The position numbers and the translations under genes are program-made. The notes beneath the pieces were generated by a model. The model ran no database searches. It was given only the letters and a program-made list of their open reading frames with translations, and was not told where the DNA came from. Shown here one piece after another: positions 11,009 to 37,610 of a stretch of 37,853 nucleotides of DNA. Every line of letters starts with the position of its first letter. Positions within the stretch are counted from its first letter, which is position 1. Source of the DNA: Chloroflexota bacterium (lineage in GTDB: Bacteria; Chloroflexota; UBA6077; FW602-bin22; JAMCYS01); the NCBI GenBank assembly GCA_023473795.1, contig JAMCYS010000018.1, forward strand, positions 1 through 37,853, given 5' to 3'.

Positions 11009-11383
11009 TCATTCGACGATCACCTTGCCACGCAGCATGTTCATCTGGCAATGGAAGTCGTACTCGCCGGGCTTCTCCGGCGTGAACTCTACCGGCACCG
11101 TCTGCCCCTCCGGCAGGAAGGCGCTCTTGCCGAAGTCGCTGAGTATCACCGTCTCCGAGCAGGCGGCGCTCTCCTGGCGCGTGAAATTCAGACGCACGGG
11201 CTTTCCCGCCTCCACCACGATCACGTCGGGGCTGTAGCCACCCTTGACGACGACGTCGACCTCCTGCATCCCACCCGCCGCCTGAGCCCGGGTCACCTCC
11301 CGGGGGGCGAACCAGAAGTACCAGGCAATGAAGGCGGAGAGGGCCACCCCGCCCACGGTAACCGCGACCTGGGCGATGTCCAC
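11009..11383 (-). CDS. Membrane-anchored cupredoxin-like protein, partner of CopA
   Basis: 124 residues: an N-terminal membrane anchor (about residues 5-27) and one plastocyanin-like beta-sandwich of the Cupredoxin_1 type, exposed outside the membrane. Possible metal ligands are the Cys in AACSETV, and His, Cys and Met in YDFHCQMNM near the C-terminus. The first His of a classical blue copper site is replaced by Cys. The GTG start at 11381-11383 shares one base with the CopA stop and has AAGGGG 9 nt upstream, so the two are translationally coupled. Coupling to a copper ATPase suggests it receives or buffers exported copper; that role is inferred. A paralogue lies at 26561-26992. Confidence 0.85.
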   Translation of the reverse strand: MDIAQVAVTVGGVALSAFIAWYFWFAPREVTRAQAAGGMQEVDVVVKGGYSPDVIVVEAGKPVRLNFTRQESAACSETVILSDFGKSAFLPEGQTVPVEFTPEKPGEYDFHCQMNMLRGKVIVE

Positions 11384-14139
11384 TATCTAATCCCCTTCGG
11401 CCGCCAACCCCGCAGGCGATTGGCGTTGCTGACCACCGTCACGGAGCTTGCCGCCATCGCCGCCCCGGCAATCATCGGGGAGAGCAGCAAACCGAAGAAG
11501 GGGTATAGGACCCCGGCGGCTATCGGCACCCCCAGCGTGTTGTAGACGAACGAGCCGAAAAGGTTCTGCCTGATATTGCGCATCGTGGCCCGGGAAATCT
11601 CGATGGCGACCACCACATCACGCAGACTGCCCTTGATGAGCGTGACATCCGAGGCCTCAATGGCGACGTCGGTCCCTGTGCCGATGGCGATGCCCACGTC
11701 CGCCTGAGCCAGGGCAGGAGCATCGTTGATGCCGTCACCTACCATCGCCACCTTCCGGCCCTCAGCCTGGAGCCTGCGCACCTGCAACGCTTTGTCCTCC
11801 GGTAGCACCTCTGCCAGCACGCGGTCGACTCCCACCTCACGGGCAATCGCCTCCGCCGTGCGTCGACTGTCGCCCGTCAGCATGACGACCTCCAGCCCTT
11901 GGGCGCGCAGCGTCCGGATGGCCTCCGCGGAGTCTGGCTTGACCGTGTCCGCGACGGCGATCACTCCCAGGGGTCTGCCGTCAGCCGCAGCGTACATCGG
12001 CGTCTTACCCTCGTCAGCCAGTCGACGAACGGCCTCCTCCAATCCATCGAGCGGAACGCCGCGCTCCCGCATCAGTTTCAGGTTGCCTAGAAGCACTTCA
12101 CGTCCTGCCACTCGCGCCTCGACCCCTCGTCCCGGCAGCGCCCGAAAGTCCTCTGCGTCCGGCACTGCGAGCCCCTGCCCTTCTGCCCCGCGCACGATCG
12201 CCTCACCGAGGGGGTGCTCTGAGCCTTTCTCCACCGCCGCCGCCAACCGCAGTACCTCGGTCTCCGATGCCTCGCCACTCTCGACCACCACGATGTTGGT
12301 CAACGCCGGCTTGCCGAAGGTGATGGTGCCCGTCTTGTCCATCACTACTGTGTCGATTGACTGCGCCGCCTGCAGAGCGGTCCCGTTGCGGATGAGTACC
12401 CCGTGCTCGGCCGCCTTGCCCACCCCCACCATCAGCGACATCGGCGTCGCCAGGCCCAGGGCGCAGGGGCAGGCGATGACGAGTATGGATACCGAGGTGA
12501 TCAGCGCGAAGATCAGACGCGGCTGCGGCCCGAAGTCGAACCAGGCGACGAACGTCAGCACGGCCACGATCATCATCGCCGGCACGAAGTAGCCGGAGAC
12601 GACGTCGGCGATCCGCTGGATGGGCGCCTTGGAGCCTTGCGCTTCCTGCACTAGGCGCACGATCTGCGCCAGCGCCGTGTCCTTGCCCACCTTAGTGGCG
12701 CGGAACCGAAAGGCACCCGTCTTGTTGATCGTCGCCCCGATCACCTCGTCGCCCGGGTGCTTCTCCACTGGCATGGGCTCGCCGGTGATCATTGCCTCGT
12801 CCACCGCCGAGGAGCCCTCCTCGACCACCCCGTCCACGGGCACCTTCTCGCCCGGCCGTACCAGCACCAGGTCGCCCACCAGCACCTCTTCCACGGGGAT
12901 GTCCTGCTCCGTCCCGTCGCGAACGACTCTCGCCGCGCGCGGCTGCAGCCCCATCAATTTCTTGATCGCCTCCGAGGTGCGGCCGCGGGCGCGTAGCTCC
13001 AGCGCCTGCCCCAGGACGACGAGGGCAATGACGACCGCGACCACGTCGAAGAAGGGCTCCGCCGTGCCGGCAGGGAAGACCCCTGGCACCGAGATGGCCA
13101 CCACCGAATAGAGCCAGGCCGCCCCCGTGCCGAGGGCGACGAGCGTGTTCATGTCGGCCGAGCGGTGCCGCAGCGCGCGCCAGCCGCCGACAAAGAAACG
13201 ACGCCCCGAGTAGACGAGCACGGGCAAGGTCAAAGCGGCATCCCCGAACCATATGGTACGCAGGGTCTCTCTAGGCAAGCCGCGCAGGCCGGGCACGAAA
13301 TCTGGGTAGGAGGTCAGTAGCACCGGCACCGCGACGACGGCAGCAAAGAGGAAGCGGTTGAAGAGCGTGCGATACTCGCGGTCGTGGGCCTCGCGCTCGG
13401 CGTCCTGCGACAGCGCTGTGGGAGCGGGGCCAACCTCGAAGCCCGTCTCGTCCTCGATCGTGCGCCGAATCAAGCCCAGGTCGGCCAGGCTGGGGACGTA
13501 CCGGACCCGCGCCTCTCCCGCGCCCAGACTTACCTCGGCCGAGAGCACCCCCGGCAGCCTCCTCAGCGCGTCCTCCAGACGCGGTACGCAGGAGGCTCAG
13601 GTCATGCCCCTGATGCCTAGTCGCTCCTCTGCGGAACCCACCGCATAGCCGACTTGACGCACGGCGTCGGCCATTTGCGGCAGGCCCACGCGGGTCCGGT
13701 CGTAGACGACCGTCGCTCTTCGCGAGTCGGCGTTGACGAAAGCGCCCTGCACGCCGGGAAGGGTGGCCAGCGCCTGCTGCACGCGCTTGGCGCACTCGGC
13801 GCAGTCCATCTGCTCGATAGGCAGTTCCACCCGCACAACCTGCGCCCCCTCGGGCACCCCGGTGGTGAGCGAGGGCACCGGCTTCTTCGCCGCCGGACCG
13901 ACCGCCAGGTATGCCACGCTCCCGTCGCCCGAGCTGGATTCCGTGTCGGCCTTCTGCGACGAGGCGTAAGCCTCCGGATCGGCCTTGAAGCGCTCCGCGC
14001 ACTCTGCCGAGCAGAAGTAGTACGTCCGCCCCCGGTACTCCGTGGACGCCGCTGCCTCCGCGGGCGATACCGGCATCCCGCATACCGGGTCCCTCTCCTG
14101 GGCCGACTCGGCTGAACCGGTCTTCCTCTCACTCCCCAT
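11383..14139 (-). CDS. copA: Copper-translocating P1B-type ATPase CopA with predicted selenocysteine at residue 181
   Basis: Exports Cu(I) across the cytoplasmic membrane at the cost of ATP. Domain order in the 918-residue product: YHS metal-binding domain (residues 16-58, DPVCGMP and FCSAEC), HMA1 with MDCAEC (111-116), HMA2 with GMT-TGA-ASC, then the ATPase core with [21 protein letters not shown] and [18 protein letters not shown]. The HMA2 motif is normally GMTCASC, so the in-frame TGA (13599-13597) stands for the first metal-binding Cys, and the frame continues seamlessly with HMA2 sequence. A SECIS-like hairpin follows directly. If TGA acted as a stop, the product would be a 180-residue YHS-HMA fragment; a GTG at 13548 could start an ATPase lacking both N-terminal HMA motifs. 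The start ATG at 14139 has AGGTGG upstream. The gene is coupled to the cupredoxin downstream. Confidence 0.9.
13557..13596 (-). other. Predicted bacterial SECIS element in copA
   Basis: Read on the minus strand from the base after TGA: GCCTCCT (13596-13590) pairs perfectly with AGGAGGC (13563-13557). Inside it CGCGTC pairs with GACGCG around the loop TGGAG. The apical loop begins 19 nt after TGA and has G in its second position. Placement and loop fit the bacterial SECIS pattern as I know it. Confidence 0.75.
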
Positions 14140-26560: not shown

Positions 26561-26992
26561 GTGGCAGAACCGGCGATGGTCGTCTTGGTCGTAGCCCTAG
26601 TGCTTGGCATGGCCCTTATCGCCTGGTCACTCTCAGCCGAGAGCGGGACGGCGCATACGCGCTTGGTGGGTAGCAGGCAGGAGGCTTACGTTATTGTGCG
26701 GGGTCGCTATCGCCCGGGCTCGATCACGGCCTGGCGGGGTATACCACTGAGACTAACGTTCGTGCGCCAAGACGAAGACCCCTGCTCGGAGCGCGTGATC
26801 TTCTCAGGCTTGGGTGTCGACCGCTACCTGCCCGCCCACGCTGCCACGGAGGTAACGTTGCTGCCTCTGCGGACGGGCGAGTTCCTCTTCACCTGCCAAA
26901 TGGGTATGTACCAGGGCACGCTCGTGGTAAAGGAACCGCCCCGGGGGTTGCTGGTGGCGCGGCATGGCCAGGCCGCGGACAGGAGAGCCTAG
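26561..26992 (+). CDS. Second membrane-anchored cupredoxin-like protein
   Basis: 143 residues: a membrane anchor (about 5-25) and a cupredoxin domain clearly paralogous to the CopA-coupled protein at 11009. Shared blocks are L-R-L-x-F-x-RQ, a Cys-Ser-Glu motif (DPCSERVIF), and the C-terminal F-x-(H/T)-CQM-x-M (FTCQMGMYQG). Here the His before CQM is Thr, so the metal site is even less like a blue copper site; two Cys and two Met remain as possible soft ligands for Cu(I). The GTG start has GAGG about 9 nt upstream. It is convergent with the CuA-cytochrome c gene, which ends 29 nt away. Confidence 0.8.
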   Translation: MAEPAMVVLVVALVLGMALIAWSLSAESGTAHTRLVGSRQEAYVIVRGRYRPGSITAWRGIPLRLTFVRQDEDPCSERVIFSGLGVDRYLPAHAATEVTLLPLRTGEFLFTCQMGMYQGTLVVKEPPRGLLVARHGQAADRRA

Positions 26993-27021: not shown

Positions 27022-28026
27022 TCACTTGCGGCCGTAATCGAACGCGAACGAGCGCAGGTAACTGACGACCGCCTCCAGATCCTCTTGGCTGTAGAGCGAG
27101 CCCCACTCCGGCATACCTGTGCCCATGCCACCCCGGAAGGCTTTGCCCTGCAGCAGGGCATCGCTCGCGCTGAACAAGCGGGAAGCGTCCGTGAAGTCCA
27201 CCGGTCCGCGTTTCTCTCCCGGGTAGAGGGCAGCACGGCCGGGCAGGCTCCTGCCGGCTGGGCCGTCAGCTCTGCCGCTCTCGCCGTGGCAGGCCGCGCA
27301 ATCGCGTGCGTACAGTTCAGCGCCCCTGGCGATAGTGCTCGGGCCGGCAGCGTCAAGCCAAACGGCCGCCACCACGTCCCAGAGATCGTCATCGCTCAGA
27401 CCGGGCGTACTTGCCGACGATCGCAAGACCTCGAAGGCGTCCTGCGGGGAGTGCGTCCGCAGCCAGGAGCGGTCGGACAGCTCCTTGGGCAGCACAGGCG
27501 TGAGCGCGTTCCCGCGGGCGGCAGACGGCCGGCTGGAGGGCAGCGTGACCGGCGGACGCGGGGCGTCGAGGTCCAGTTTCAGTTGGCTGTAAGGCGGGTG
27601 CGCGGCCGGCGCCTGGGCCAAGGCGCCCGGGTTACTTGGGTCGACAACCTCTATCACGCCGCGCATTCGCCAGTGGTCGGCGCCGCACCAGCGCGTGCAG
27701 GCGAAGGCGAAGCGCCCCACCTTGTCGGCCGTGAACTCCACCTCCGCCACGTGACCGGGCAGAATCTCCTCCACCTCCAGGTCGAGGCCCGGCACGGCCA
27801 GGCCGTGGACGACGTCACTGGCGGCGATGCGCAGGCGGATGCGCTCACCCCTATATACGCGGATGCTGTCCGGCAGCCAGCCCCCCTGGGCGGGGGCGGA
27901 GCCTACGATCTGAACCACCCGCACCCCGGGCACGGCGACTCTGGCCGCCTGGTAGGCGAAGACCGCCCCCGGCAGGCCCAGGACGATAAGCAGCAACGCG
28001 GACGCGGTCAGCAGTTCACGTTTCAT
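27022..28026 (-). CDS. CuA-domain protein fused to cytochrome c
   Basis: 334 residues, exported by an N-terminal signal or anchor (about 5-24). The cupredoxin domain has the complete binuclear CuA ligand set of cytochrome oxidase subunit II and N2O reductase: H74 and C110, C114, H118, M121 in CTRWCGADHWRM. After a Pro/Ala linker, a cytochrome c domain carries CAACH (C243, C246, H247) and a late Met in GMGTGMPEW as likely sixth ligand. It would carry single electrons on the outer membrane face. Unlike CoxB it has no paired N-terminal transmembrane hairpin, and no oxidase subunit I gene is in the window. The ATG at 28026 follows the polyferredoxin stop by 2 nt. It is the last gene of the ccd/ccm operon. 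Confidence 0.88.
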   Translation of the reverse strand: MKRELLTASALLLIVLGLPGAVFAYQAARVAVPGVRVVQIVGSAPAQGGWLPDSIRVYRGERIRLRIAASDVVHGLAVPGLDLEVEEILPGHVAEVEFTADKVGRFAFACTRWCGADHWRMRGVIEVVDPSNPGALAQAPAAHPPYSQLKLDLDAPRPPVTLPSSRPSAARGNALTPVLPKELSDRSWLRTHSPQDAFEVLRSSASTPGLSDDDLWDVVAAVWLDAAGPSTIARGAELYARDCAACHGESGRADGPAGRSLPGRAALYPGEKRGPVDFTDASRLFSASDALLQGKAFRGGMGTGMPEWGSLYSQEDLEAVVSYLRSFAFDYGRK

Positions 28027-28028
28027 CG

Positions 28029-29873
28029 TCAACCCAGATAGACAATTATGAATGCGAGTGTGAAGGCGGAGCAGAAGACCACCGCGGGCGCCAGCGCTCG
28101 CCCGGGCAGTCTGAGTTCCCGCGCCATGCGGCCCAAGATGGCCAGGGCCCCCGCTAGGCCAGCTAGCAGCACCAGAGTCCGCGGCAATGGCAAGGCCCCC
28201 GACGCATAAGGCTGCCAGGCGAGGCCGGCCGTGCCGAATAGGTCCCAGCCCCAGCCCAAGGGATCTGATAGCACCGGCCAGGCGTACGAGCCGTTGGCGA
28301 GGGCGAAGGAAAGGCTGAACGCAGCCCAAGCGGCCAAACCGAGCGGGATCAAGGCCTGGGCCAGAACAGAGTACACCCGGCCGCCGTCCAGCGCTCGCCC
28401 GCCCAGGCGCCGTGCCCAGAGGGCGCAGGCGTAGAACAAGCCGGGGACGACAACCAGGTTAGTCGTGAGGAAGACTAGCGCGTAGCCCAGCCACGGCCAG
28501 GTGCCGATGCCTCGCGCAACGTCCTTCAGCTCCGCCCAGGGCCCGAGCAGGACCACCGAGTAGAGCAAGGCGCAGCTCAACATGATCAGCGCCTTGAAGG
28601 CCTCGTCCAGCCGCGGCTGCCGATCGGCGTGCAGGTCGGCAGCCGGAGCCTGGAGGAACAGTCCTACGTTGCCTCGGTCGCAGGTCTTCAGACACTCGGT
28701 GCAGAGGCCGCAATGGGCGTTGCGCGCCAGGGCGCCGGGGACGACCAGCCAGGGGCAGCCGAAGCCACGATCGCTGCCCTTGAGGCAAGGCTTCTCCGCA
28801 TGGGCAAGGCAGACGGCCCGGTCCCGCACGCGCACCGCCAGCGGCGCCACCTGGGCATAGAGGCCGACGAAGCCACCCACGGGGCAGAGATAACGGCAGA
28901 ACACCCTCCCCTCGAAGATGAGGCTGGTGACGATGGCCACGGCCGCCAGACCAACCAGGAGTCCGGCGGTGAGCAGGGGCCCGGTGATGATTACTATGGA
29001 GAAGAGGGCTACAGCGAGAAAGCCGCCGTTCTGGGTCCACATATTGCGCAGGCGCGCCGGCCAGCGCCGGCCGAGCGTACTTAGTCTGCCGCCTGCCCGA
29101 GGACGGATGAGCGATCTCCGTTGCAGCCACTCGCCCGGGGCCGGGAGCGGGCACATCGCGCACCAAAGCCGGCCACCCAGAGGCACTAGCAGTAGCATCA
29201 ACAGCGCCCACCAGACGATCCAGACGAAGACGATGGCGAAGTTGCGGCTGCCCACCGGAGTGCCCGCGAACCCAGCCAGCACCGCCAGCACGAAGAAGGG
29301 CAGGGTGGCCGAAATCAACGCCCACTGCAGCCAGCGACTGCCCAGGACGCGTCGCAGCGGCGGCCAGCGCGTCAGCTCGAAGCGTCGCGGTGCCTGGGCT
29401 GATCTCTGGTTGGCCGCGCCGGCCGGAGCGAGTGGGTAGAGTACCAGCGAACCGAACAAGACTATGAGGAGGGCGACAACCGCCCGTGCCAGGGGCAGGT
29501 TTGGTGTGACCTCCAACTCCCCGACCATGAAGGGATGCAGGGCGCCGCAGGCGATGGAGCAGCGGAAGACGAACTTCCCTTCTCGGTCGGCATGGAAGGT
29601 AACGCTCGTTCTGTGACCCGGCTCGGCCTTCAGGTTGACGTCATAGCCGTCCAGGGAGAGGCCGTGAATGGAGTCGAGGGCCTCGATGTCTAGAGTCACG
29701 ACATCGCCCCGCCCCACGCGCACGGCGCTGGGTGTGAAGGCAAACTGGCTGGCCGTGATCTGGACGTGCCGCAGCTCTCCCGCCTCGCTTCGCCAAGGCA
29801 GGGGCGCTACCAGGGCTGCGACCGCCAAGGTGAGCGTGACGAAAGGAATGGCTAGCCTGGCGCGAGCCTTCAC
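28029..29873 (-). CDS. CuA-type cupredoxin fused to a NosR/NapH-like membrane polyferredoxin
   Basis: About 614 residues. A signal or anchor segment (about 8-25) precedes a cupredoxin domain with a full CuA ligand set: H70, C105, C109, H113, M116 (CSIACGALHPFM). Several membrane segments follow, with two Cys-Pro motifs (WCAMCPLPAPGEW and FCRYLCPVGGFVGLYAQ) typical of NosR/NapH/CcoG-like proteins, and then Cys clusters including HCGLCTECLKTC, fit for [4Fe-4S]. More membrane segments close the protein. The architecture suggests electron transfer across the membrane between CuA outside and iron-sulfur clusters inside. The start is uncertain: I prefer GTG 29873, just after the selenoprotein stop; ATG 29918 is an alternative. 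Two bases separate it from the next gene. Confidence 0.8.
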   Translation of the reverse strand: MKARARLAIPFVTLTLAVAALVAPLPWRSEAGELRHVQITASQFAFTPSAVRVGRGDVVTLDIEALDSIHGLSLDGYDVNLKAEPGHRTSVTFHADREGKFVFRCSIACGALHPFMVGELEVTPNLPLARAVVALLIVLFGSLVLYPLAPAGAANQRSAQAPRRFELTRWPPLRRVLGSRWLQWALISATLPFFVLAVLAGFAGTPVGSRNFAIVFVWIVWWALLMLLLVPLGGRLWCAMCPLPAPGEWLQRRSLIRPRAGGRLSTLGRRWPARLRNMWTQNGGFLAVALFSIVIITGPLLTAGLLVGLAAVAIVTSLIFEGRVFCRYLCPVGGFVGLYAQVAPLAVRVRDRAVCLAHAEKPCLKGSDRGFGCPWLVVPGALARNAHCGLCTECLKTCDRGNVGLFLQAPAADLHADRQPRLDEAFKALIMLSCALLYSVVLLGPWAELKDVARGIGTWPWLGYALVFLTTNLVVVPGLFYACALWARRLGGRALDGGRVYSVLAQALIPLGLAAWAAFSLSFALANGSYAWPVLSDPLGWGWDLFGTAGLAWQPYASGALPLPRTLVLLAGLAGALAILGRMARELRLPGRALAPAVVFCSAFTLAFIIVYLG

Positions 29874-29880
29874 GCTCCCG

Positions 29881-30378
29881 TCACGGCCCAACGGGCTCGG
29901 CCGCGGTGGGCTCGCCATAGCGGCCGTAGGTGCTATCGATGTAGGCCCGGACCTCGGCAATAGGCCGGTTCTCTTTGAGCAAACGCATCGCGTCACGCGC
30001 GATGTCCACACAGAGGCTTCAGCCATAGCCCATCTGGTCCCAGTCTACCGAGCCGTCGGGCCTAACTTCCTTGACGAAGCAATCGTGCACGCTCTTATGG
30101 CCAACCGAGCCGCAGCCGCAGTAGCAGGGGATGTACTTCAGCGTGTCCGGGTTGGCCAGCGCGTACAGGTACGTTTCGCGAACGGTGGCCGGAGCGGTCC
30201 GCAAGAAGTCGGGCAGGGCCTGGGTTGATGCCGGCTTCGTCGCCCCACCCGCCGCACAGCCGCTGCTGGCCAGCAACAGCGCCACCGCCAAGGCGAGCAC
30301 GGGCCCGTAGCGCCGAAATAGACGGCCGCCCCAGCGGCCCCGCGGTCTTGCCGGAGGCTGATCTTGTCTTCTAGTCAT
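29881..30378 (-). CDS. PCYCGC-motif lipoprotein with predicted selenocysteine at residue 120
   Basis: 165 residues. The lipoprotein signal peptide ends in LLLASSGC (Cys 41). The family core YIPCYCGCGSVGHKSVHDCF follows at residues 82-101. PCYCGC-family proteins then have a segment like W-D-x-x-G-x-x-C-G-x-C-L-(E/D)-I-A; here it reads WDQMGYG-TGA-SLCVDIARDAMRLL, so the TGA (30021-30019) replaces the first Cys of that C-x-x-C. The frame continues 45 residues, including IAEVRAYIDSTYG, a standard family ending, to TGA 29881. A SECIS-like hairpin follows. The ATG at 30378 overlaps the ccmH stop by 8 nt with AGGATCTGG upstream. Its location between ccmH and the CuA proteins suggests thiol-redox or metal delivery to CuA or cytochromes; this is inferred. 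Confidence 0.88.
29986..30004 (-). other. Predicted bacterial SECIS element in the PCYCGC gene
   Basis: On the minus strand CATCGCG (30004-29998) pairs perfectly with CGCGATG (29992-29986) around loop CGTGA (29997-29993). The loop begins 21 nt after TGA and has G in its second position. Confidence 0.75.
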
Positions 30379-30853
30379 CCAGATCCTGCTCGAATTGCAG
30401 CTCGTAGGCTGCCAGATCCTCAGGCGTTGGCGGCAGACCGAGGGTAGCCTCGCCAGGCGGCCGCCTCCGCCAGCGCAGAAGGAACACCGCCAGCAGCGCC
30501 GCGCCGGCGGCAATACCGGCTGCCGGCAGCCACCACAGCACCTGATTGAAACCAACCCGCGGGGGCTCCCTAAGGATGGACTCCCCGTAGCGGTCGACAA
30601 AGTAGGCCAGAATCTGCTGGCGCGACTCGCCGTCCTCCAGCTTCTTGCGGATGAGGGCCCGCATCTGCTGAGCCAGCTGGCTGGACGACTCATCTACTGA
30701 TTGTCCGGCGCAGATGGGACACTGCAGCTCGCCGGCGATGGCGTGTACCTGCCCATCGATCGGATTGTCGGCCCGAGCAGTCTGAGGCAGGCTCAGCCAC
30801 AAGGTGGGCAGCAGAACTGCCAGCAGGCAGGCTCGCACCGGTATGAGCCTCAC
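30371..30853 (-). CDS. ccmH: Cytochrome c maturation protein CcmH
   Basis: Reduces or holds apocytochrome c cysteines for heme attachment. The 160-residue protein has a signal peptide (1-28), the CcmH motif LQCPICAGQSVDES (C45, C48) at the start of its helical bundle, MRALIRKKLEDGESRQQILAYF, and the YGE-x-IL-x-x-P block. A C-terminal membrane segment (about 107-126) and an acidic tail complete it. Length is normal. Its ATG overlaps the ccmG stop (ATGA) and its stop overlaps the PCYCGC start by 8 nt, so translation is coupled on both sides. Confidence 0.95.
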   Translation of the reverse strand: MRLIPVRACLLAVLLPTLWLSLPQTARADNPIDGQVHAIAGELQCPICAGQSVDESSSQLAQQMRALIRKKLEDGESRQQILAYFVDRYGESILREPPRVGFNQVLWWLPAAGIAAGAALLAVFLLRWRRRPPGEATLGLPPTPEDLAAYELQFEQDLDD

Positions 30854-31377
30854 CGCAGCGCTTCCTCAAGGAAGGCTGCGATCTGCTGGTCGTTCAGGGC
30901 GCCCACCCAGCGGCGCACCAATCTGCCCTCGCGACCGAGCACCCAGGTTTCCGGCACCCCGGTGAGGCCGTATTCGATGGCTACCTCGCCGCTGGAATCG
31001 ATCACGTTGGGGTAGGTGATCCCGTACTCCTCCATGAAGGCGCGGGCATCCGTCTGTGTATCCCAAACGTCCACGCCGACGAACACGACCGCTTGGTCCT
31101 GGTAGGCCTGCCAAGCTCGCTCCAGAACCGGCGCCTCCTCCTTGCAGGGGGGGCACCAGGAGGCCCAGAAATTGACGAGGACGACCTTGCCCCGCTGCTC
31201 GGCCAGATGGAAAGTGCCACCCGAGTAGAGTTCCAGCGTGAAGTCGGTCGCCATCCGACCCGAACGCAAGGCCGTCGGTTCGGCGGCCGCGACACCACGT
31301 CCGCCCAGAACGCCCCAGGCCAGTAGGGCTGTGCCGGCCAACACGACCAACGCGGCGCAGACTGCCACCTTCCTCAA
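30850..31377 (-). CDS. ccmG: Thiol:disulfide oxidoreductase CcmG/ResA-like
   Basis: 175 residues. An N-terminal anchor (about 5-32) exposes a thioredoxin fold outside the membrane. The active site is WCPPC (C75, C78) within VVLVNFWASWCPPCKEEAP, and the cis-Pro loop is GLTGVPETWVL. CcmG/ResA proteins take electrons from CcdA and keep apocytochrome heme-binding thiols or CcmH reduced. The gene starts 9 nt after ccdA and overlaps ccmH (ATGA). I cannot separate CcmG from ResA by sequence alone, but company with CcmH, CcmE and CcmF favours CcmG. Confidence 0.92.
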   Translation of the reverse strand: MRKVAVCAALVVLAGTALLAWGVLGGRGVAAAEPTALRSGRMATDFTLELYSGGTFHLAEQRGKVVLVNFWASWCPPCKEEAPVLERAWQAYQDQAVVFVGVDVWDTQTDARAFMEEYGITYPNVIDSSGEVAIEYGLTGVPETWVLGREGRLVRRWVGALNDQQIAAFLEEALR

Positions 31378-31386
31378 GATCTCACC

Positions 31387-32121
31387 TCAGCGCGCCAGGG
31401 TGTAGTACAGCCGCTGTGCGGCTATGCTCAAGTAGAAGAAACGGTCGCTGAGGAAGAGCAGGCCCACCGCCACGAGTAGACCGCCACCTACTCTGTTAAC
31501 CAACAGGTAGTGCTTCTTGAACCAACCGATGGCGCCGGCGAGCCGGGCGAAGCCCACGCCCGCGGCGATGAAAGGCAGGCCCAGCCCCAGCGAGTAGGCG
31601 AGCAGGAGGAGCGCCCCACGGCCGGCCGTCTCCGCCGTGCCGGCGTAGAAGAGGATAGAGGCCAGTACCGGCCCGATGCAGGGCGTCCAACCCACGCCGA
31701 AGGCCGCCCCCAGCAGCACGGTGCCGCCCGGCCCAAAGGGACGCCCGGCGGGGTGGAAGCGAAAGTCCCGATAGAGCCAGGGCAAGCGGAAGAAGCCGAG
31801 GATGAAGAGCCCCATTAAGATCATCACGATCCCCGCCAGGCGATTCAAGGGCCGCCGATACTCGTCCAGGAAACCGCCCAGCAGTCCCGCGGAGGCGCCC
31901 AAGAGGACGAAGACCGCCGAGAAACCGGTGACGAACAGGAGGCAGGCGCTGGCGACGCGCCAGGTCTGATCTCGGCTGGCCTGCCCCGATTCGTGGGCCG
32001 AGTAGCCCGATACGTACGAAAGGTAGCCGGGCACCAGAGGGGCGACGCAAGGCGACAGAAACGACAGAATGCCGGCGCCGAAGGCAAGAAACCAGCCGAC
32101 CTCTGGTATTACCTGATTCAC
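31387..32121 (-). CDS. ccdA: Cytochrome c biogenesis membrane protein CcdA
   Basis: Carries electrons from cytoplasmic thioredoxin across the membrane to CcmG. The 244-residue protein has six hydrophobic segments and the paired redox cysteines in LSPCVAPLVPGYLSYVSG (C25) and GVGWTPCIGPVLA (C148), the DsbD/CcdA signature. GTG at 32121 has GGGGAGG about 10 nt upstream. It is the first gene of the operon ccdA-ccmG-ccmH-PCYCGC-CuA/polyferredoxin-CuA/cytochrome c. I found no convincing promoter upstream. Confidence 0.95.
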   Translation of the reverse strand: MNQVIPEVGWFLAFGAGILSFLSPCVAPLVPGYLSYVSGYSAHESGQASRDQTWRVASACLLFVTGFSAVFVLLGASAGLLGGFLDEYRRPLNRLAGIVMILMGLFILGFFRLPWLYRDFRFHPAGRPFGPGGTVLLGAAFGVGWTPCIGPVLASILFYAGTAETAGRGALLLLAYSLGLGLPFIAAGVGFARLAGAIGWFKKHYLLVNRVGGGLLVAVGLLFLSDRFFYLSIAAQRLYYTLAR

Positions 32122-32769: not shown

Positions 32770-33807
32770 CTAGCCGCCCACGTAACGGGCGTAGAGGGTA
32801 CGTGCCACGCTTTCTTCAGTCGTGCCCTGGACGATGGTGCGACCGTTGGGGAAGACGACGAGCGTGTACCCTTCCACTTCCAGGCTGAGTAAGAAGCCGT
32901 TGTAGACAACTTGCCCCACCAGACGGAGGCGTCGGGCCAGCTCCGACAGGGGAAGGGTCTGCTCAACCGCGGGGACGATCTGCACGCTATTGCGCCCGCA
33001 GAGGACGGTCGTCCAGGAGGTGCGCTCGCCGGCGAGGAACTCGAACCGGCGCTCTCCGCAAGCGGGACAGTCATCCCGTCGCCGGAGCGCAATTTCCTGG
33101 AATGCGCCCTCCCAAACGTCCACGTACAGGACCCCTGCAGTCGCGGGCTGGCCGGTCAACAGCCGCAGCGCCTGGGCACACTGGAGGGAAGCCACCGTTC
33201 CCGACGCCGCCGCGAGCACGCCGGCCGTGTCGCAGGTCTCGCCCACACCCGGCGGCACAGGATTGGCAAGAAAGCAGCGTAAGCACGGCGTTTTCTTCGG
33301 GACGATGGCCATTGTACAGCCCCACGAGCCCACGGCGCCACCGTAAACCCAGGGGACGCCCGACTTGACGCACGCGTCGTTGACGAGGAAGCGAGTCTCC
33401 CAGTTGTCCGTGCCGTCGATGACCACGTCGGCCCCAGCCAGGAGCCCCTCCACGTTGCGCACGGTTACATCGGCGACGATGGGCTCGACTGCGACCTCGC
33501 TGTTGGCCGCTCGTAGCTTCGTCGCCGCGGCTACGGCTTTGGGCAACCGTTGGGCCGCATCCTCCTCGTCGTACAGTACCTGGCGCTGTAGGTTGGAGAC
33601 TTCGACGAAGTCGCGGTCCACGAGGCGCAGGTGCCCGACCCCTGCCCGAGCTAGCTGTCCTGCGCTGACCGTGCCGAGCGCCCCCAGACCCACTATCACT
33701 GCCCGGCTCCGCGCCAGTCTGACTTGCCCCTCCCGGCCGATGGGCGCGAAGAGCACCTGCTTGGCGTAGCGCGGCGAGAGCGCCTGCTGTGGGGATGTTT
33801 CGTTCAC
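32770..33807 (-). CDS. ThiF/MoeB/HesA-type adenylyltransferase
   Basis: An E1-like enzyme that adenylates the C-terminal Gly-Gly of a sulfur carrier (ThiS/MoaD/CysO type) for thiocarboxylate formation. The 345-residue protein has the nucleotide-binding GLGALGTVSAGQLARAGVG, the DRDFVEVSNLQRQVLY block with its conserved Arg, the DGTDNWETRFLVND loop, and zinc cysteines in PCLRCF and CPACG. The C-terminal region (about 265-345) is a small domain common to MoeB-like proteins of this kind, ending VVFPNGRTIVQGT. The GTG start overlaps the desulfurase stop by 4 nt (GTGA), with AGGAAGGGC upstream. The cognate carrier is not in the window. With the desulfurase it forms a sulfur-transfer pair. Confidence 0.9.
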   Translation of the reverse strand: MNETSPQQALSPRYAKQVLFAPIGREGQVRLARSRAVIVGLGALGTVSAGQLARAGVGHLRLVDRDFVEVSNLQRQVLYDEEDAAQRLPKAVAAATKLRAANSEVAVEPIVADVTVRNVEGLLAGADVVIDGTDNWETRFLVNDACVKSGVPWVYGGAVGSWGCTMAIVPKKTPCLRCFLANPVPPGVGETCDTAGVLAAASGTVASLQCAQALRLLTGQPATAGVLYVDVWEGAFQEIALRRRDDCPACGERRFEFLAGERTSWTTVLCGRNSVQIVPAVEQTLPLSELARRLRLVGQVVYNGFLLSLEVEGYTLVVFPNGRTIVQGTTEESVARTLYARYVGG

Positions 33808-34976
33808 TCTGCCCTTCCTGAGGGTGACCAAACTTGACGTAGAACTGCCACCACTTCGCTCAGTGCGGCGAGCGTGTAGTCGATGTCCTCCTGAGTGGTA
33901 GTGTGCCCCAGGGAGAAACGGAGCGAGCCTAGCGCCAGCACGGGCTCGAGGCCCATCGCCCGCAGCACGTGCGAGGGCTGGGTGGAGCCTGCCGCACAGG
34001 CCGAGCCCGTGGACACGGCCACTCCCTTCACGTCCAGTGCTAGGAGCAGCGATTCCCCTTCGACGCCGGCGAAGCTCACATTCAGAATGTTGGGTAGGCG
34101 CAACTCTGGATGGCCATTGGTCTCCACCCGGTCGATGCGCTCGCGGATGCCCACTTCCAGGCGGTCGCATAGGGCGGCCAGCCGAGGAACCTCAGTGCTC
34201 AATTCCTTCGCCGCCAGGTCGAGCGCCGTCGCCAGGGCGACGATTCCGGCCACGTTCTGCGTTCCGGGGCGCAGACCGCCCTCCTGCTCCCCGCCCCGCA
34301 GTAGCGGCGCGATGGGCGTGCCCCGGCGCACGTAGAGCGCCCCGCTGCCTTTGGGACCGCCGAACTTGTGGGCGGTGAGCGACAGGAGGTCGACGCCCAG
34401 CTCGTTCACGTCCACCGCCATCTTGCCTATCGCCTGGACGGCATCCGTATGGAAAAGCACGCCCCGCTCGTGGGCAAGGGCCGCCGCCTGGCGCACCGGC
34501 TGGACGGTGCCCACCTCGTTGTTGGCCAGCATCAGGCTAACCAGCAGGGTGTCCGGGCGGATGGCCTCGCGCAGCGCCGCCAGGTCGACGATGCCCTGGT
34601 GGTCGACCGGCAGATAGGTCACTTCGTAGCCCTGGCCCTCCAGCCACTGGCAGGTGTGGAGGATGGCGTGGTGCTCGATGCGCGAGGTGATGAGGTGGCG
34701 GCCCTTATCCTTGAGCGCCTGGGCGATGCCCAAGAGGGCCTGATTGTCTGACTCGGTGCCGCCGCTCGTGAAGAAGACTTCGCGCGGGTTGGCGCCGAGC
34801 GAGGCGGCCACGCGCTCGCGTGCCCCCTCCAAGGCGCGCTTCGCCTTCTGGCCGAACGTGTGCAGGCTCGAGGCGTTGCCCGCTACCTCGGCGAGGTAGG
34901 GCAGCATCGCCGCCACCACTTCGGGCCGCACGGGTGTGGTGGCGGAGTGATCCAGGTAGACCTGTCTGGTAACCAT
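33804..34976 (-). CDS. Cysteine desulfurase, NifS/IscS class
   Basis: A PLP enzyme that removes sulfur from cysteine as persulfide for Fe-S clusters, tRNA thiolation or sulfur carriers. The 390-residue protein starts YLDHSATTPVRPEV, has the SGGTESDNQAL block, HTDAVQAIGK, the PLP-binding K204 in SLTAHKFGGPKG, and the persulfide Cys C327 in STGSACAAGSTQPSH. The long active-site loop and this consensus place it in group I (NifS/IscS), not SufS. Selenocysteine lyase activity is common in such enzymes, which is relevant if the cell makes selenoproteins, but cannot be read from the sequence. It lies between larE and the thiF/moeB-like gene. Confidence 0.95.
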   Translation of the reverse strand: MVTRQVYLDHSATTPVRPEVVAAMLPYLAEVAGNASSLHTFGQKAKRALEGARERVAASLGANPREVFFTSGGTESDNQALLGIAQALKDKGRHLITSRIEHHAILHTCQWLEGQGYEVTYLPVDHQGIVDLAALREAIRPDTLLVSLMLANNEVGTVQPVRQAAALAHERGVLFHTDAVQAIGKMAVDVNELGVDLLSLTAHKFGGPKGSGALYVRRGTPIAPLLRGGEQEGGLRPGTQNVAGIVALATALDLAAKELSTEVPRLAALCDRLEVGIRERIDRVETNGHPELRLPNILNVSFAGVEGESLLLALDVKGVAVSTGSACAAGSTQPSHVLRAMGLEPVLALGSLRFSLGHTTTQEDIDYTLAALSEVVAVLRQVWSPSGRAE

Positions 34977-35001
34977 CTAGCTTGCCTCCGCGCCAGGCTG
35001 T

Positions 35002-35844
35002 CTATTCGGCCCGGGGCTCGTTGACGCCGGTCTTGGCCAGGGCGTCGTTCATACTGCCACTGCGGAAGCCAGCGAGATCGAGGGCTACGTAGGCGTAGCC
35101 AAGGTCCTTCAGCCAGGCCAGAACTTGCTCGCGCAGCGTCGCCTCCAGCAGGCGGGCGAACTCGGCCGGGGCCACTTCTAGGCGAGCTATCTCGCTGTGG
35201 TCACGCACTCGCACCTCGCGGAAGCCCAGCTCGTAACGCAGGAAGGCCTCGGCTTGCTCCACGCGCGTCAGCTTCTCCGGGGTGATCCGCGTGCCATAAG
35301 GAAAGCGGGAGGATAGACAGGCCATCGCCGGCTTGTCCCAGGTGCGCAGCCCCAGTCGCCGCGAGAGCTCGCGCACGTCCGCCTTGCTGAAGCCCGCCTC
35401 AAGCAGCGGGGCGACGGCCCCCGCCTCCCTGGCGGCGCGCATTCCCGGTCGGTAGTCGCCCAGGTCGGTCGCCGTGGCGCCGTAGGCCAGATGGCGGAAG
35501 CCGCGTTGCCCCGCCAGCGCCCGCATGCGCTCGAAAAGCTCACGCTTGCAGTAGTAGCAGCGGTCGGGCGGGTTATTGGCAAAATGATCGTCGGCCAGCT
35601 CCGCGGTGGCCACGGTGGCGAACTGCGCCCCCAGCTCCGCCGCCAGCGTCCTGGCCTCCTCCAACTCCTGGCGTGGCAGGGTGGGCGAGTCGGCGGTGAT
35701 CGCCAGAACGCGCTCTGCCCCCAGCGCCCGCAGGCTCATCGCCAGGAGGAGGGAGGAGTCGCTGCCGCCCGAGAAGGCCACGGCCACGTTCTCCAGTTCC
35801 TTCAGGTGCGCGCTCAGTGCTTCGATCTTGGCCTCGAGTTCCAA
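35002..35844 (-). CDS. larE: ATP-dependent sacrificial sulfur transferase LarE
   Basis: LarE-type enzymes activate a carboxylate with ATP and insert sulfur, in the model case from their own Cys, during nickel-pincer cofactor synthesis. The 280-residue protein has the PP-loop AVAFSGGSDSSLLL (SGGSDS, residues 25-30), DRCYYCKRELF and MACLSSRFPYGT, giving the Cys set seen in cluster-type or sacrificial LarE proteins. I start at the TTG at 35844 (GGAGAAG upstream, 7 nt) since the family begins here; the frame is open to 36063 but that part is not LarE-like. LarB, LarC and LarA are not in the window, so the sulfur acceptor may be different. Confidence 0.9.
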   Translation of the reverse strand: MELEAKIEALSAHLKELENVAVAFSGGSDSSLLLAMSLRALGAERVLAITADSPTLPRQELEEARTLAAELGAQFATVATAELADDHFANNPPDRCYYCKRELFERMRALAGQRGFRHLAYGATATDLGDYRPGMRAAREAGAVAPLLEAGFSKADVRELSRRLGLRTWDKPAMACLSSRFPYGTRITPEKLTRVEQAEAFLRYELGFREVRVRDHSEIARLEVAPAEFARLLEATLREQVLAWLKDLGYAYVALDLAGFRSGSMNDALAKTGVNEPRAE

Positions 35845-35956
35845 GGTGGCTTCTCCAGTTTCAGTTGTCGGCTGGCTGCTCGCTGGCCGTCGCGCCCCTC
35901 GGGCCAGGTGGAAGGGTGCGCCGACCCACGGCCGTGGCGTCAGCCGCCGCCAGGTG

Positions 35957-36154
35957 CTACCGAGCCGCTTCTCGGTCGCGGGCACGTTTCTTCCTGGCCC
36001 CGCGAAGAGCCGCTTCGATTTTGTCTTTGCAGCAGGCGCACACCCTGATAGCGCGGCCCGCAATGGCCGGGTGGGGGATGTCCAGCACCCGTCTGCCCTG
36101 CAGGGGGCACTGGTACCCCCCGCAGTGGTCGCGATAGGAGCTGGCGGCGCTCAC
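35957..36154 (-). CDS. Small Cys-rich, zinc-finger-like protein
   Basis: 65 residues, unrecognised. It starts 23 nt after cysK with GTG at 36154 and GGGAGG 9-14 nt upstream, so it is very likely translated. Cys residues sit in DHCGGYQC and VCACC, a layout that could bind zinc or an Fe-S cluster, and the C-terminus is a basic Arg/Lys-rich helix (about 44-65). Position between cysK and larE suggests a role in sulfur handling or its regulation. No homology is claimed. Confidence 0.6.
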   Translation of the reverse strand: MSAASSYRDHCGGYQCPLQGRRVLDIPHPAIAGRAIRVCACCKDKIEAALRGARKKRARDREAAR

Positions 36155-36177
36155 CTCTCGGATCCTCCCAGATAGGG

Positions 36178-37110
36178 CTAAGATTGCTGGAAGAGCGGGG
36201 TAGACAGGTAACGCTCGCCGGTGTCGGGCAGGAGGACGACGATCAGCTTGCCGGCATTCTCCGGGCGCCGGGCCACCTGGATGGCGGCGTGGGCGGCGGC
36301 CCCGCTGCTGATACCGGCGAGAATTCCCTCCTGGCGGGCCAACGCCCGGCCCATGGCAAAGGCCTCGTCGTTCGTCACCCTGAGAACCTCGTCGATCAGC
36401 TCGCGGTCGAGCACCTGGGGCACAAAGCCGGCGCCGATGCCTTGGATCTTGTGCGGGCCGGGCTGGCCGCCTGAGAGCACGGGCGAGTCCGTCGGCTCGA
36501 CGGCGATGGCCTTAAAGCCGGGCTTGCGTGCCTTCAGCACTTGGGCGACGCCGGTGATCGTGCCGCCGGTGCCTACGCCGCCGACGAAGATGTCCACTTG
36601 CCCGTCCGTGTCGGCCCAGATCTCCTCGGCCGTGGTCTCACGGTGGATCTTGGGGTTGGCCGGGTTCTTGAATTGCTGCGGCAGCAGCGCCCCAGGGTTT
36701 TCGGCCACCACCTGCTCCGCCCGACGGATGGCGCCGTTCATCCCCTCGCTGCCCGGGGTAAGAACGATCTCGGCCCCCAGGGCTTTGAGCAGCTGGCGGC
36801 GCTCGACGCTCATTGTCTCGGGCATGGTGAGGACCAGTCTGTAGCCCCGAGCGGCGGCGACGAAAGCCAGGGCAATGCCGGTGTTGCCGCTCGTGGGCTC
36901 GACGACCAGGCCACCGGGCCTGAGCGCACCGGCCTTCTCCGCCTCGTCGATCATGGAGACGCCGATGCGGTCCTTGACGCTGCTGAGGGGGTTGAAGCTC
37001 TCCATCTTCGCCACCACGCTGGCGTGGGCGCCCTCGGTCACGCGGTTAAGGCGCACTAGAGGGGTGCGGCCTATGGTTTCGGTAATATCGCCGTAGATCC
37101 TCGTAGACAA
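36178..37110 (-). CDS. cysK: Cysteine synthase (O-acetylserine sulfhydrylase)
   Basis: A PLP enzyme that makes cysteine from O-acetylserine and sulfide. The 310-residue protein has the PLP-binding K46 in [11 protein letters not shown], the substrate loop [12 protein letters not shown], the phosphate-binding [13 protein letters not shown] and the late [13 protein letters not shown] block. Length is typical of CysK. It follows the Rrf2 regulator by 56 nt on the same strand and is presumably under its control, as cysteine genes are under CymR in Gram-positive bacteria. Confidence 0.95.
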
Positions 37111-37166
37111 TTCAGTGCCTCCTCACTTGCCTAGTGCCGATATTGTGTTTGTCCCGCTCGGCCGGA

Positions 37167-37610
37167 CTATATAGCGTAGTCCAGGACCTTTGCCTGTTGT
37201 CGCTCTCGCGCCCGGTCGGCCAAGGCGGCCACGGTCGTCGCCTCCAGCTTGCTCATCGTCTGCTCGAAAAGCTCGCACCAAACCTCGCGGGCCACACAGT
37301 CCACGGCCCGGCGACACTCCTCGGGGTTGCCCACGCAGCTCACGAACGTTTCGTGGCTCTCAAAGACGTCGTACACGTCGCGTAGGGTGATCCGGCCAGC
37401 GGGCCGGGCCAGCCTATAGCCGCCCTGTGAGCCACGCGCACTCTGCACCAGGCCGGCGCCGCGCAGCGCGCTGAAGAGGGATTCCAGGTACTTGAGGGAG
37501 AGGTCCTGACTAGCAGCAATTTGCTGAAGACTGATGGCCCCCTCGCCCTCACGGAGGGCCAGCTCCAACAGCGCCCTGGTCGCGTAGCGGGTCCTGGTGT
37601 TGATACGCAC
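37167..37610 (-). CDS. Rrf2-family regulator, IscR-like, first gene of the sulfur operon
   Basis: 147 residues. The winged helix-turn-helix (about 5-75) includes RYATRALLELALREG, ISLQQIAASQDLSLKYLESL and a wing GSQGGYRLARP. Three Cys (C92, C99, C105) in CVGNPEECRRAVDC match the spacing of the [2Fe-2S]-binding Cys of IscR (C-x6-C-x5-C), so the protein may sense Fe-S or redox status. CymR-type regulators lack this set. The GTG at 37610 has AGGAG about 9 nt upstream. A dyad overlaps its own -10 box, suggesting autorepression. Confidence 0.92.
   Translation of the reverse strand: MRINTRTRYATRALLELALREGEGAISLQQIAASQDLSLKYLESLFSALRGAGLVQSARGSQGGYRLARPAGRITLRDVYDVFESHETFVSCVGNPEECRRAVDCVAREVWCELFEQTMSKLEATTVAALADRARERQQAKVLDYAI

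Follow-up and report, generated by a model that had tools for sequence, protein, structure and literature searches.

A predicted selenocysteine-containing PCYCGC-family lipoprotein encoded next to CuA genes in a Chloroflexota bacterium

The window, a 37,853-nucleotide stretch of DNA from a Chloroflexota bacterium, carries on its minus strand a gene for a PCYCGC-family (PF13798) lipoprotein (29881..30378) with an in-frame TGA at 30019..30021. The locus raised two questions: whether this TGA is a stop or a selenocysteine (Sec) codon, and what the encoded protein would do between ccm genes and CuA genes. The start of the gene was read by eye as an ATG at 30378, within the last codons of ccmH, and a lipoprotein signal was read by eye in the product. 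The translation runs ...PCYCGCGSVGHKSVHDCFVKEVRPDGSVDWDQMGYG-TGA-SLCVDIARDAMRLLKENRPIAEVRAYIDSTYGRYGEPTAAEPVGP-TGA, with the first TGA at 30021..30019 and the second at 29883..29881 of the minus strand, and 45 further in-frame codons lie between them. When the internal UGA was read as U, a protein of 165 aa with Sec120 was obtained. The residues around the TGA are WDQMGYG-TGA-SLCVDIA, and the U-x-x-C motif is U-S-L-C.

The PF13798 profile gave 111.6 bits against a cut-off of 25, and the match spanned the TGA. The features that define this family, the PCYCGC motif together with the conserved His, Cys and C-x-x-C, were present in the lipoprotein. The PCYCGC motif was located at 30112..30129 (minus), and its three cysteines belong to the invariant set of alignment A2, which consists of C42, C44, C46, H51, C57, C/U77 and C80 when U is read as C. 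For the frame test, an HMM was built from the 84 Cys-containing homologues only. The part before the TGA scored 90.9 bits against this HMM, and the part after it by itself scored 38.3 bits. The two alternative frames after the TGA scored below 0 bits. The next gene starts with GTG at 29873. Its distance from the second TGA is 7 nt and from the first about 145 nt, and the shorter gap means that read-through fits the tightly packed gene row.

Relatives of the lipoprotein were collected to examine the Sec column. PF13798 was detected in 21 of 151 genomes of the group and then in 36 of 400. Querying the named genome collection with an alignment confirmed 357 stretches, of which the best 80 were kept. 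The column was occupied by TGA in 30 of 115 aligned loci, by TGC or TGT (Cys) in 84 and by CGA (Arg) in one. The TGA-bearing loci span Chloroflexota, Bacillota, Proteobacteria and Deltaproteobacteria and include isolate genomes. Named carriers in Chloroflexota include Caldilineae, Anaerolineales and Thermomicrobium, and those in Bacillota include Paludifilum halophilum DSM 102817 and one Alicyclobacillaceae MAG; one proteobacterial MAG and one deltaproteobacterial MAG were also named. On a tree of the PF13798 domain, computed without two trait columns, at least six interchanges between Sec and Cys were counted, and at least three when supported branches alone were considered. The column four residues before Sec (alignments A1/A2) held Met in 25 and His in 5 of the Sec loci, and Met in 1 and His in 83 of the Cys loci. 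This association gave a Fisher p of 2e-10 on de-duplicated loci with kinship ignored and was not significant after phylogenetic correction, which left three independent pairs only; it was kept as a lead. The locus with CGA belongs to a close relative (L032, G011:C131:6115-6450) in which the SECIS hairpin is fully intact. The Arg codon may stem from a recent T-to-C mutation or from a sequencing error, or it may be a living variant with Arg.

A putative bacterial SECIS hairpin, CATCGCG-CGTGA-CGCGATG, was found at 29986..30004 (minus). The 7-bp stem has 7 of 7 pairs, the loop CGTGA is at 29993-29997, and the distance from the TGA to the loop is 21 nt. Counted from the TGA, the two arms of the stem are positions 15-21 and 27-33, with the 5-nt loop between them. 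Published limits for bacterial SECIS elements are a loop of 3-9 nt, a stem of 4-16 bp, an MFE of −7.5 or below, a spacing of 16-37 nt and a G within the first two loop positions (PMC13188914). The window hairpin lies within all of them, with loop 5, stem 7, the G, spacing 21 and an MFE of about −10 to −11. Since some rows were one organism present in two collections, the hairpin statistics were computed on de-duplicated sets of 22 distinct Sec loci and 67 distinct Cys loci. At least 6 of the 7 pairs in the fixed register were kept in all 22 Sec loci (96% of cells). This level of pairing was reached in 10 of the 67 Cys loci (59% of cells in the Cys set), despite the similar protein. Compensatory changes were seen among the Sec loci, where the innermost pair is G-C, C-G or A-U, and two further stem pairs are C-G or A-U, and A-U, G-C or G-U. 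These swaps meant that third codon positions co-vary. In the pair count for the Sec loci, neither the covariation score nor the paired percentage was reached by any of 500 shuffles, and the pairing fell from 96% to at most 62% when the partner was slid by 1-3 columns. The folding energy of the window hairpin (TGA plus 39 nt) was no better than that of shuffles (z = 0.10) and was unremarkable against synonymous recoding (z = −0.18). Given its base composition, this one hairpin has an ordinary energy, so the SECIS claim rests on the comparison across loci, and it is the fixed position and the compensatory changes, not the energy, that make the hairpin convincing. The Rfam scan over the window gave no matches. 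Rfam SECIS_1 gave no match over the genome and likewise none in control genomes, so this result was uninformative.

The machinery for Sec was found in the genome, which encodes SelA (544 bits), SelB (363 bits) and a tRNA-Sec (71.9 bits, above the cut-off) with the anticodon UCA confirmed by ARAGORN. Among 36 sampled PF13798-carrying genomes in the phylum, SelA was present in 35 and tRNA-Sec in 33. Since nearly all of them have both, the machinery cannot separate Sec from Cys carriers within the phylum. These results were consistent with the initial annotation, which had predicted a selenoprotein from a PCYCGC lipoprotein with TGA at a conserved Cys, 45 family-like residues after it, and a perfect 7-bp hairpin with its loop 21 nt downstream. 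It had suggested a search of homologues for the same TGA and a covariance analysis of the hairpin, and both gave clearly positive results. It had also named two findings that would speak against the prediction, namely homologues that normally end at this point and a genome lacking Sec machinery. The other relatives instead carry Cys, once Arg, and read on, and the machinery is present.

Sec in the PF13798 family is already known. The 'CYCXC family (OS_HP4)' of PF13798 is listed as a U-x-x-C selenoprotein, from Zhang & Gladyshev 2007, in the reviews PMC9312934 and PMC13188914. As listed there, OS_HP4 (NCBIfam NF041379) resembles the window protein in its PF13798 domain, its Sec in U-x-x-C and its Cys-containing homologues. 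The window protein differs in that it reached 62.5 bits, below the equivalog cut-off of 90, and ten other relatives, with Sec or Cys, also stayed under this cut-off (best 78.1 bits). The Bacillales PCYCGC (lipo)proteins (PF13798) share the domain, the motif, the column and the lipoprotein nature. However, where the window protein has Sec they carry Cys, and four residues earlier they have His and not Met. The function of Bacillales PCYCGC motif-containing proteins has been described as unknown (PMC13068155). The pattern C-x-x-C is absent from the PCYCGC motif, and across the aligned family it occurs once, at the Sec column. The present comparison adds a wider distribution of Sec and a conserved row of CuA genes beside the PCYCGC genes, for which no description was found in the literature searched.

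The lipoprotein gene lies in a row on one strand (minus), with CcdA-, CcmG/TlpA- and CcmH-like genes upstream and two CuA genes downstream. The upstream genes encode a CcdA-like (DsbD transmembrane) protein at 31387..32121 (PF02683, 60.6 bits), a CcmG/ResA/TlpA-like thioredoxin-fold protein at 30850..31377 (PF00578/PF08534; ResA 113.6 bits, below the model cut-off of 170) and CcmH at 30371..30853 (PF03918, 101 bits). The first downstream gene, at 28029..29873, encodes a CuA (COX2-like) domain fused to a NapH-like 4Fe-4S membrane protein (PF00116, 28.4 bits; PF12801, 33.6 bits). The second, at 27022..28026, encodes a CuA domain-cytochrome c fusion (PF00116 and PF00034 in the scanned fragment from 28011), in which the motif CTRWCGADHWRM was read by eye. 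Both CuA domains keep C-x3-C-x3-H-x2-M, as read by eye. The ccm/CuA operon that had been described from the letters was thus recovered by Pfam matches for the CcdA, CcmG, CcmH and CuA genes, and its CuA part is conserved across Chloroflexota. The order PCYCGC, CuA, NapH-like, CuA-cytochrome c on one strand was found at 14 further Chloroflexota loci (15 with the window), for some of which the similarity search recovered part of the row only. These 14 comprise 3 Sec forms (L056, L057, G191) and 11 Cys forms, and since the row accompanies both alike, the exchange of Sec and Cys occurs within one gene setting. The CcdA-CcmG-CcmH block is not generally conserved around the homologues, where ccm genes are mostly absent. 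What is conserved beside the lipoprotein gene is CuA rather than ccm.

Other copper genes were found next to some carriers. In a plain tally, these adjoin P1B ATPases (L055), CopC/CopD with YcnI (L060, L067) and SCO1 (L067, G015); of these, YcnI is known to bind copper (PMC8424229). The carriers in Thermomicrobium, and many in Paenibacillus and Sporosarcina, had none of the tested CuA or copper genes nearby, and copper may therefore not be a universal role. The CuA/NapH-like/CuA-cytochrome c genes look like an electron-transfer module, from quinol or Fe-S to CuA and then to cytochrome c, and the row was matched to no known electron-transfer system. The CuA and NapH-like Fe-S proteins are encoded by one fused gene in the window (28029-29873) and by two genes in L057. 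Elsewhere in the window, a cupredoxin-like protein adjoins a P1B-type ATPase-like gene (11009-13548), and an additional cupredoxin at 26561-26992 adds to the copper genes. A row of MoeB/ThiF-, NifS-, LarE-, CysK- and Rrf2-like genes at 32770-37610 (names given by eye; the LarE-like gene was scanned) is perhaps a sulfur-mobilising cluster.

TlpA reduces ScoI and COX II before metallation and copper insertion (PMC6696091), and by analogy with this pathway we propose the lipoprotein as a supplier of copper or reducing equivalents to CuA sites. SelB would deliver Sec-tRNA to the UGA at codon 120, with the hairpin 21 nt further on as its guide. The product would be an exported lipoprotein of 165 residues carrying the PCYCGC cluster and the U-x-x-C pair, its export and anchoring being judged by eye. 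Its periplasmic partners may be the members of a thiol-reducing chain encoded in its own gene row, CcdA and then the CcmG/TlpA-like protein. Its presumed clients would be the products of the two following CuA genes, whose copper sites it would prepare or load. The Cys/Sec cluster might hold Cu(I) or reduce the CuA cysteines. From the gene context and this analogy, the chances that the lipoprotein acts in the periplasm on CuA sites, as a selenol/thiol metallochaperone or as a reductant, may be about even. TlpA, Sco and PCuAC, which are CuA assembly factors, resemble it in the proposed client (the CuA site) and in the compartment, but are unrelated to it in sequence. That Sec, with Met usually replacing the family His four residues earlier, would be a direct copper ligand in CuA-site metallochaperones is unlikely.

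A somewhat less likely alternative is that the selenoprotein has a general extracytoplasmic thiol/selenol redox role and not one in copper-site assembly, for example in cytochrome c maturation via CcmG/CcmH or in the handling of peroxide or disulfides. This role is favoured by U-x-x-C, which is common as a redox motif, by the position of ccdA, ccmG and ccmH immediately before the gene, and by the many carriers with no nearby copper gene among those tested. However, ccm genes are mostly missing near the homologues, whereas 15 loci have CuA genes on the same strand. In addition, the invariant set of C-x-C-x-C, His, Cys and C/U-x-x-C exceeds the ligand needs of a simple dithiol. The fold was also compared. 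The AlphaFold2 model of the lipoprotein, with Sec modelled as Cys, had a mean pLDDT of 92.7 and a pTM of 0.85, and a Foldseek search of all PDB entries with this model gave no significant match. The top two matches, which were non-significant, were both CcmH, a result in favour of the general redox role: 2kw0 (E 0.74, TM by target 0.57) and 2hl7 (E 1.9, TM by target 0.52). The search gave no thioredoxin-fold or cupredoxin match.

The possible relation to CcmH was considered from these and other comparisons. In hhalign, five Cys-rich CcmH variants gave E 8e-5 with a probability of 61%. The Pfam scan of the lipoprotein gave PF13798 and a sub-threshold SapB_1 only, without PF03918 (CcmH), and a SapB_1/saposin identity was rejected because that match was below threshold. 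A related helical hairpin at the C-terminus is weakly indicated for the lipoprotein and CcmH/NrfF (PF03918), but their Cys layouts differ. With non-significant fold matches, an hhalign probability of 61% and no Pfam match, homology to CcmH was not established, and any remote kinship of the PCYCGC proteins with CcmH is suggestive at best, a lead only. In CcmH-family proteins at L184:1501-1830 and L186:1501-1800 (minus), a PCYCGC-like pattern, CQCGC...CDC, replaces C-x-x-C.

The coding question was finally weighed with the homologue of Thermomicrobium roseum DSM 5159 (type strain), whose PCYCGC gene lies on the megaplasmid (NC_011961.1, L187:4878-5195). The PLSDB/RefSeq annotation stops its protein, WP_012642643.1, at the Sec-type TGA. 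This annotation and the CGA of one metagenome copy speak for a rival view, in which the TGA is an ordinary stop or the gene is decayed, with the downstream homology as a remnant, or in which the TGA is a sequencing error for TGC/TGT. The T. roseum frame past the TGA nevertheless reads GICIDITRDVMRLTAEG... and includes the hairpin CATCACG-CGTGA-CGTGATG. Because the frame and the SECIS hairpin run on past the TGA, WP_012642643.1 is probably annotated too short. A stop or a sequencing error also disagrees with the TGA that 30 aligned loci, isolates included, share at a single column together with a covarying hairpin, and with the Sec machinery of the genome. The downstream frame is conserved at the family level, and a remnant behind a genuine stop is improbable since such a downstream score would not be expected to persist in every lineage. 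We regard an ordinary stop or an error as highly improbable. Read-through with another residue, by a near-cognate suppressor or with UGA as Trp, is scarcely credible, because although an in-frame UGA by itself does not specify the residue, the homologues carry Cys and not Trp, tRNA-Sec (anticodon UCA), SelA and SelB are present, and the SECIS-like hairpin accompanies UGA and is mostly absent with Cys codons. The Sec coding, the SECIS, the Sec machinery, the family and the operon are strongly supported at the level of sequence comparison, and the probability that the window TGA is a selenocysteine codon and the gene a selenoprotein was estimated at about 0.95.

These results suggested that the use of Sec in the PCYCGC family is widespread, reaching Chloroflexota, Bacillota and proteobacterial groups with cultured strains among them. 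T. roseum is a cultured strain in which Sec incorporation is directly testable. The conserved gene row ties the PCYCGC family to CuA proteins. An involvement of selenium in copper delivery, if real, would be an unusual role for the element, and if Sec were itself a copper ligand, the lipoprotein would provide a natural selenolate copper-transfer site.
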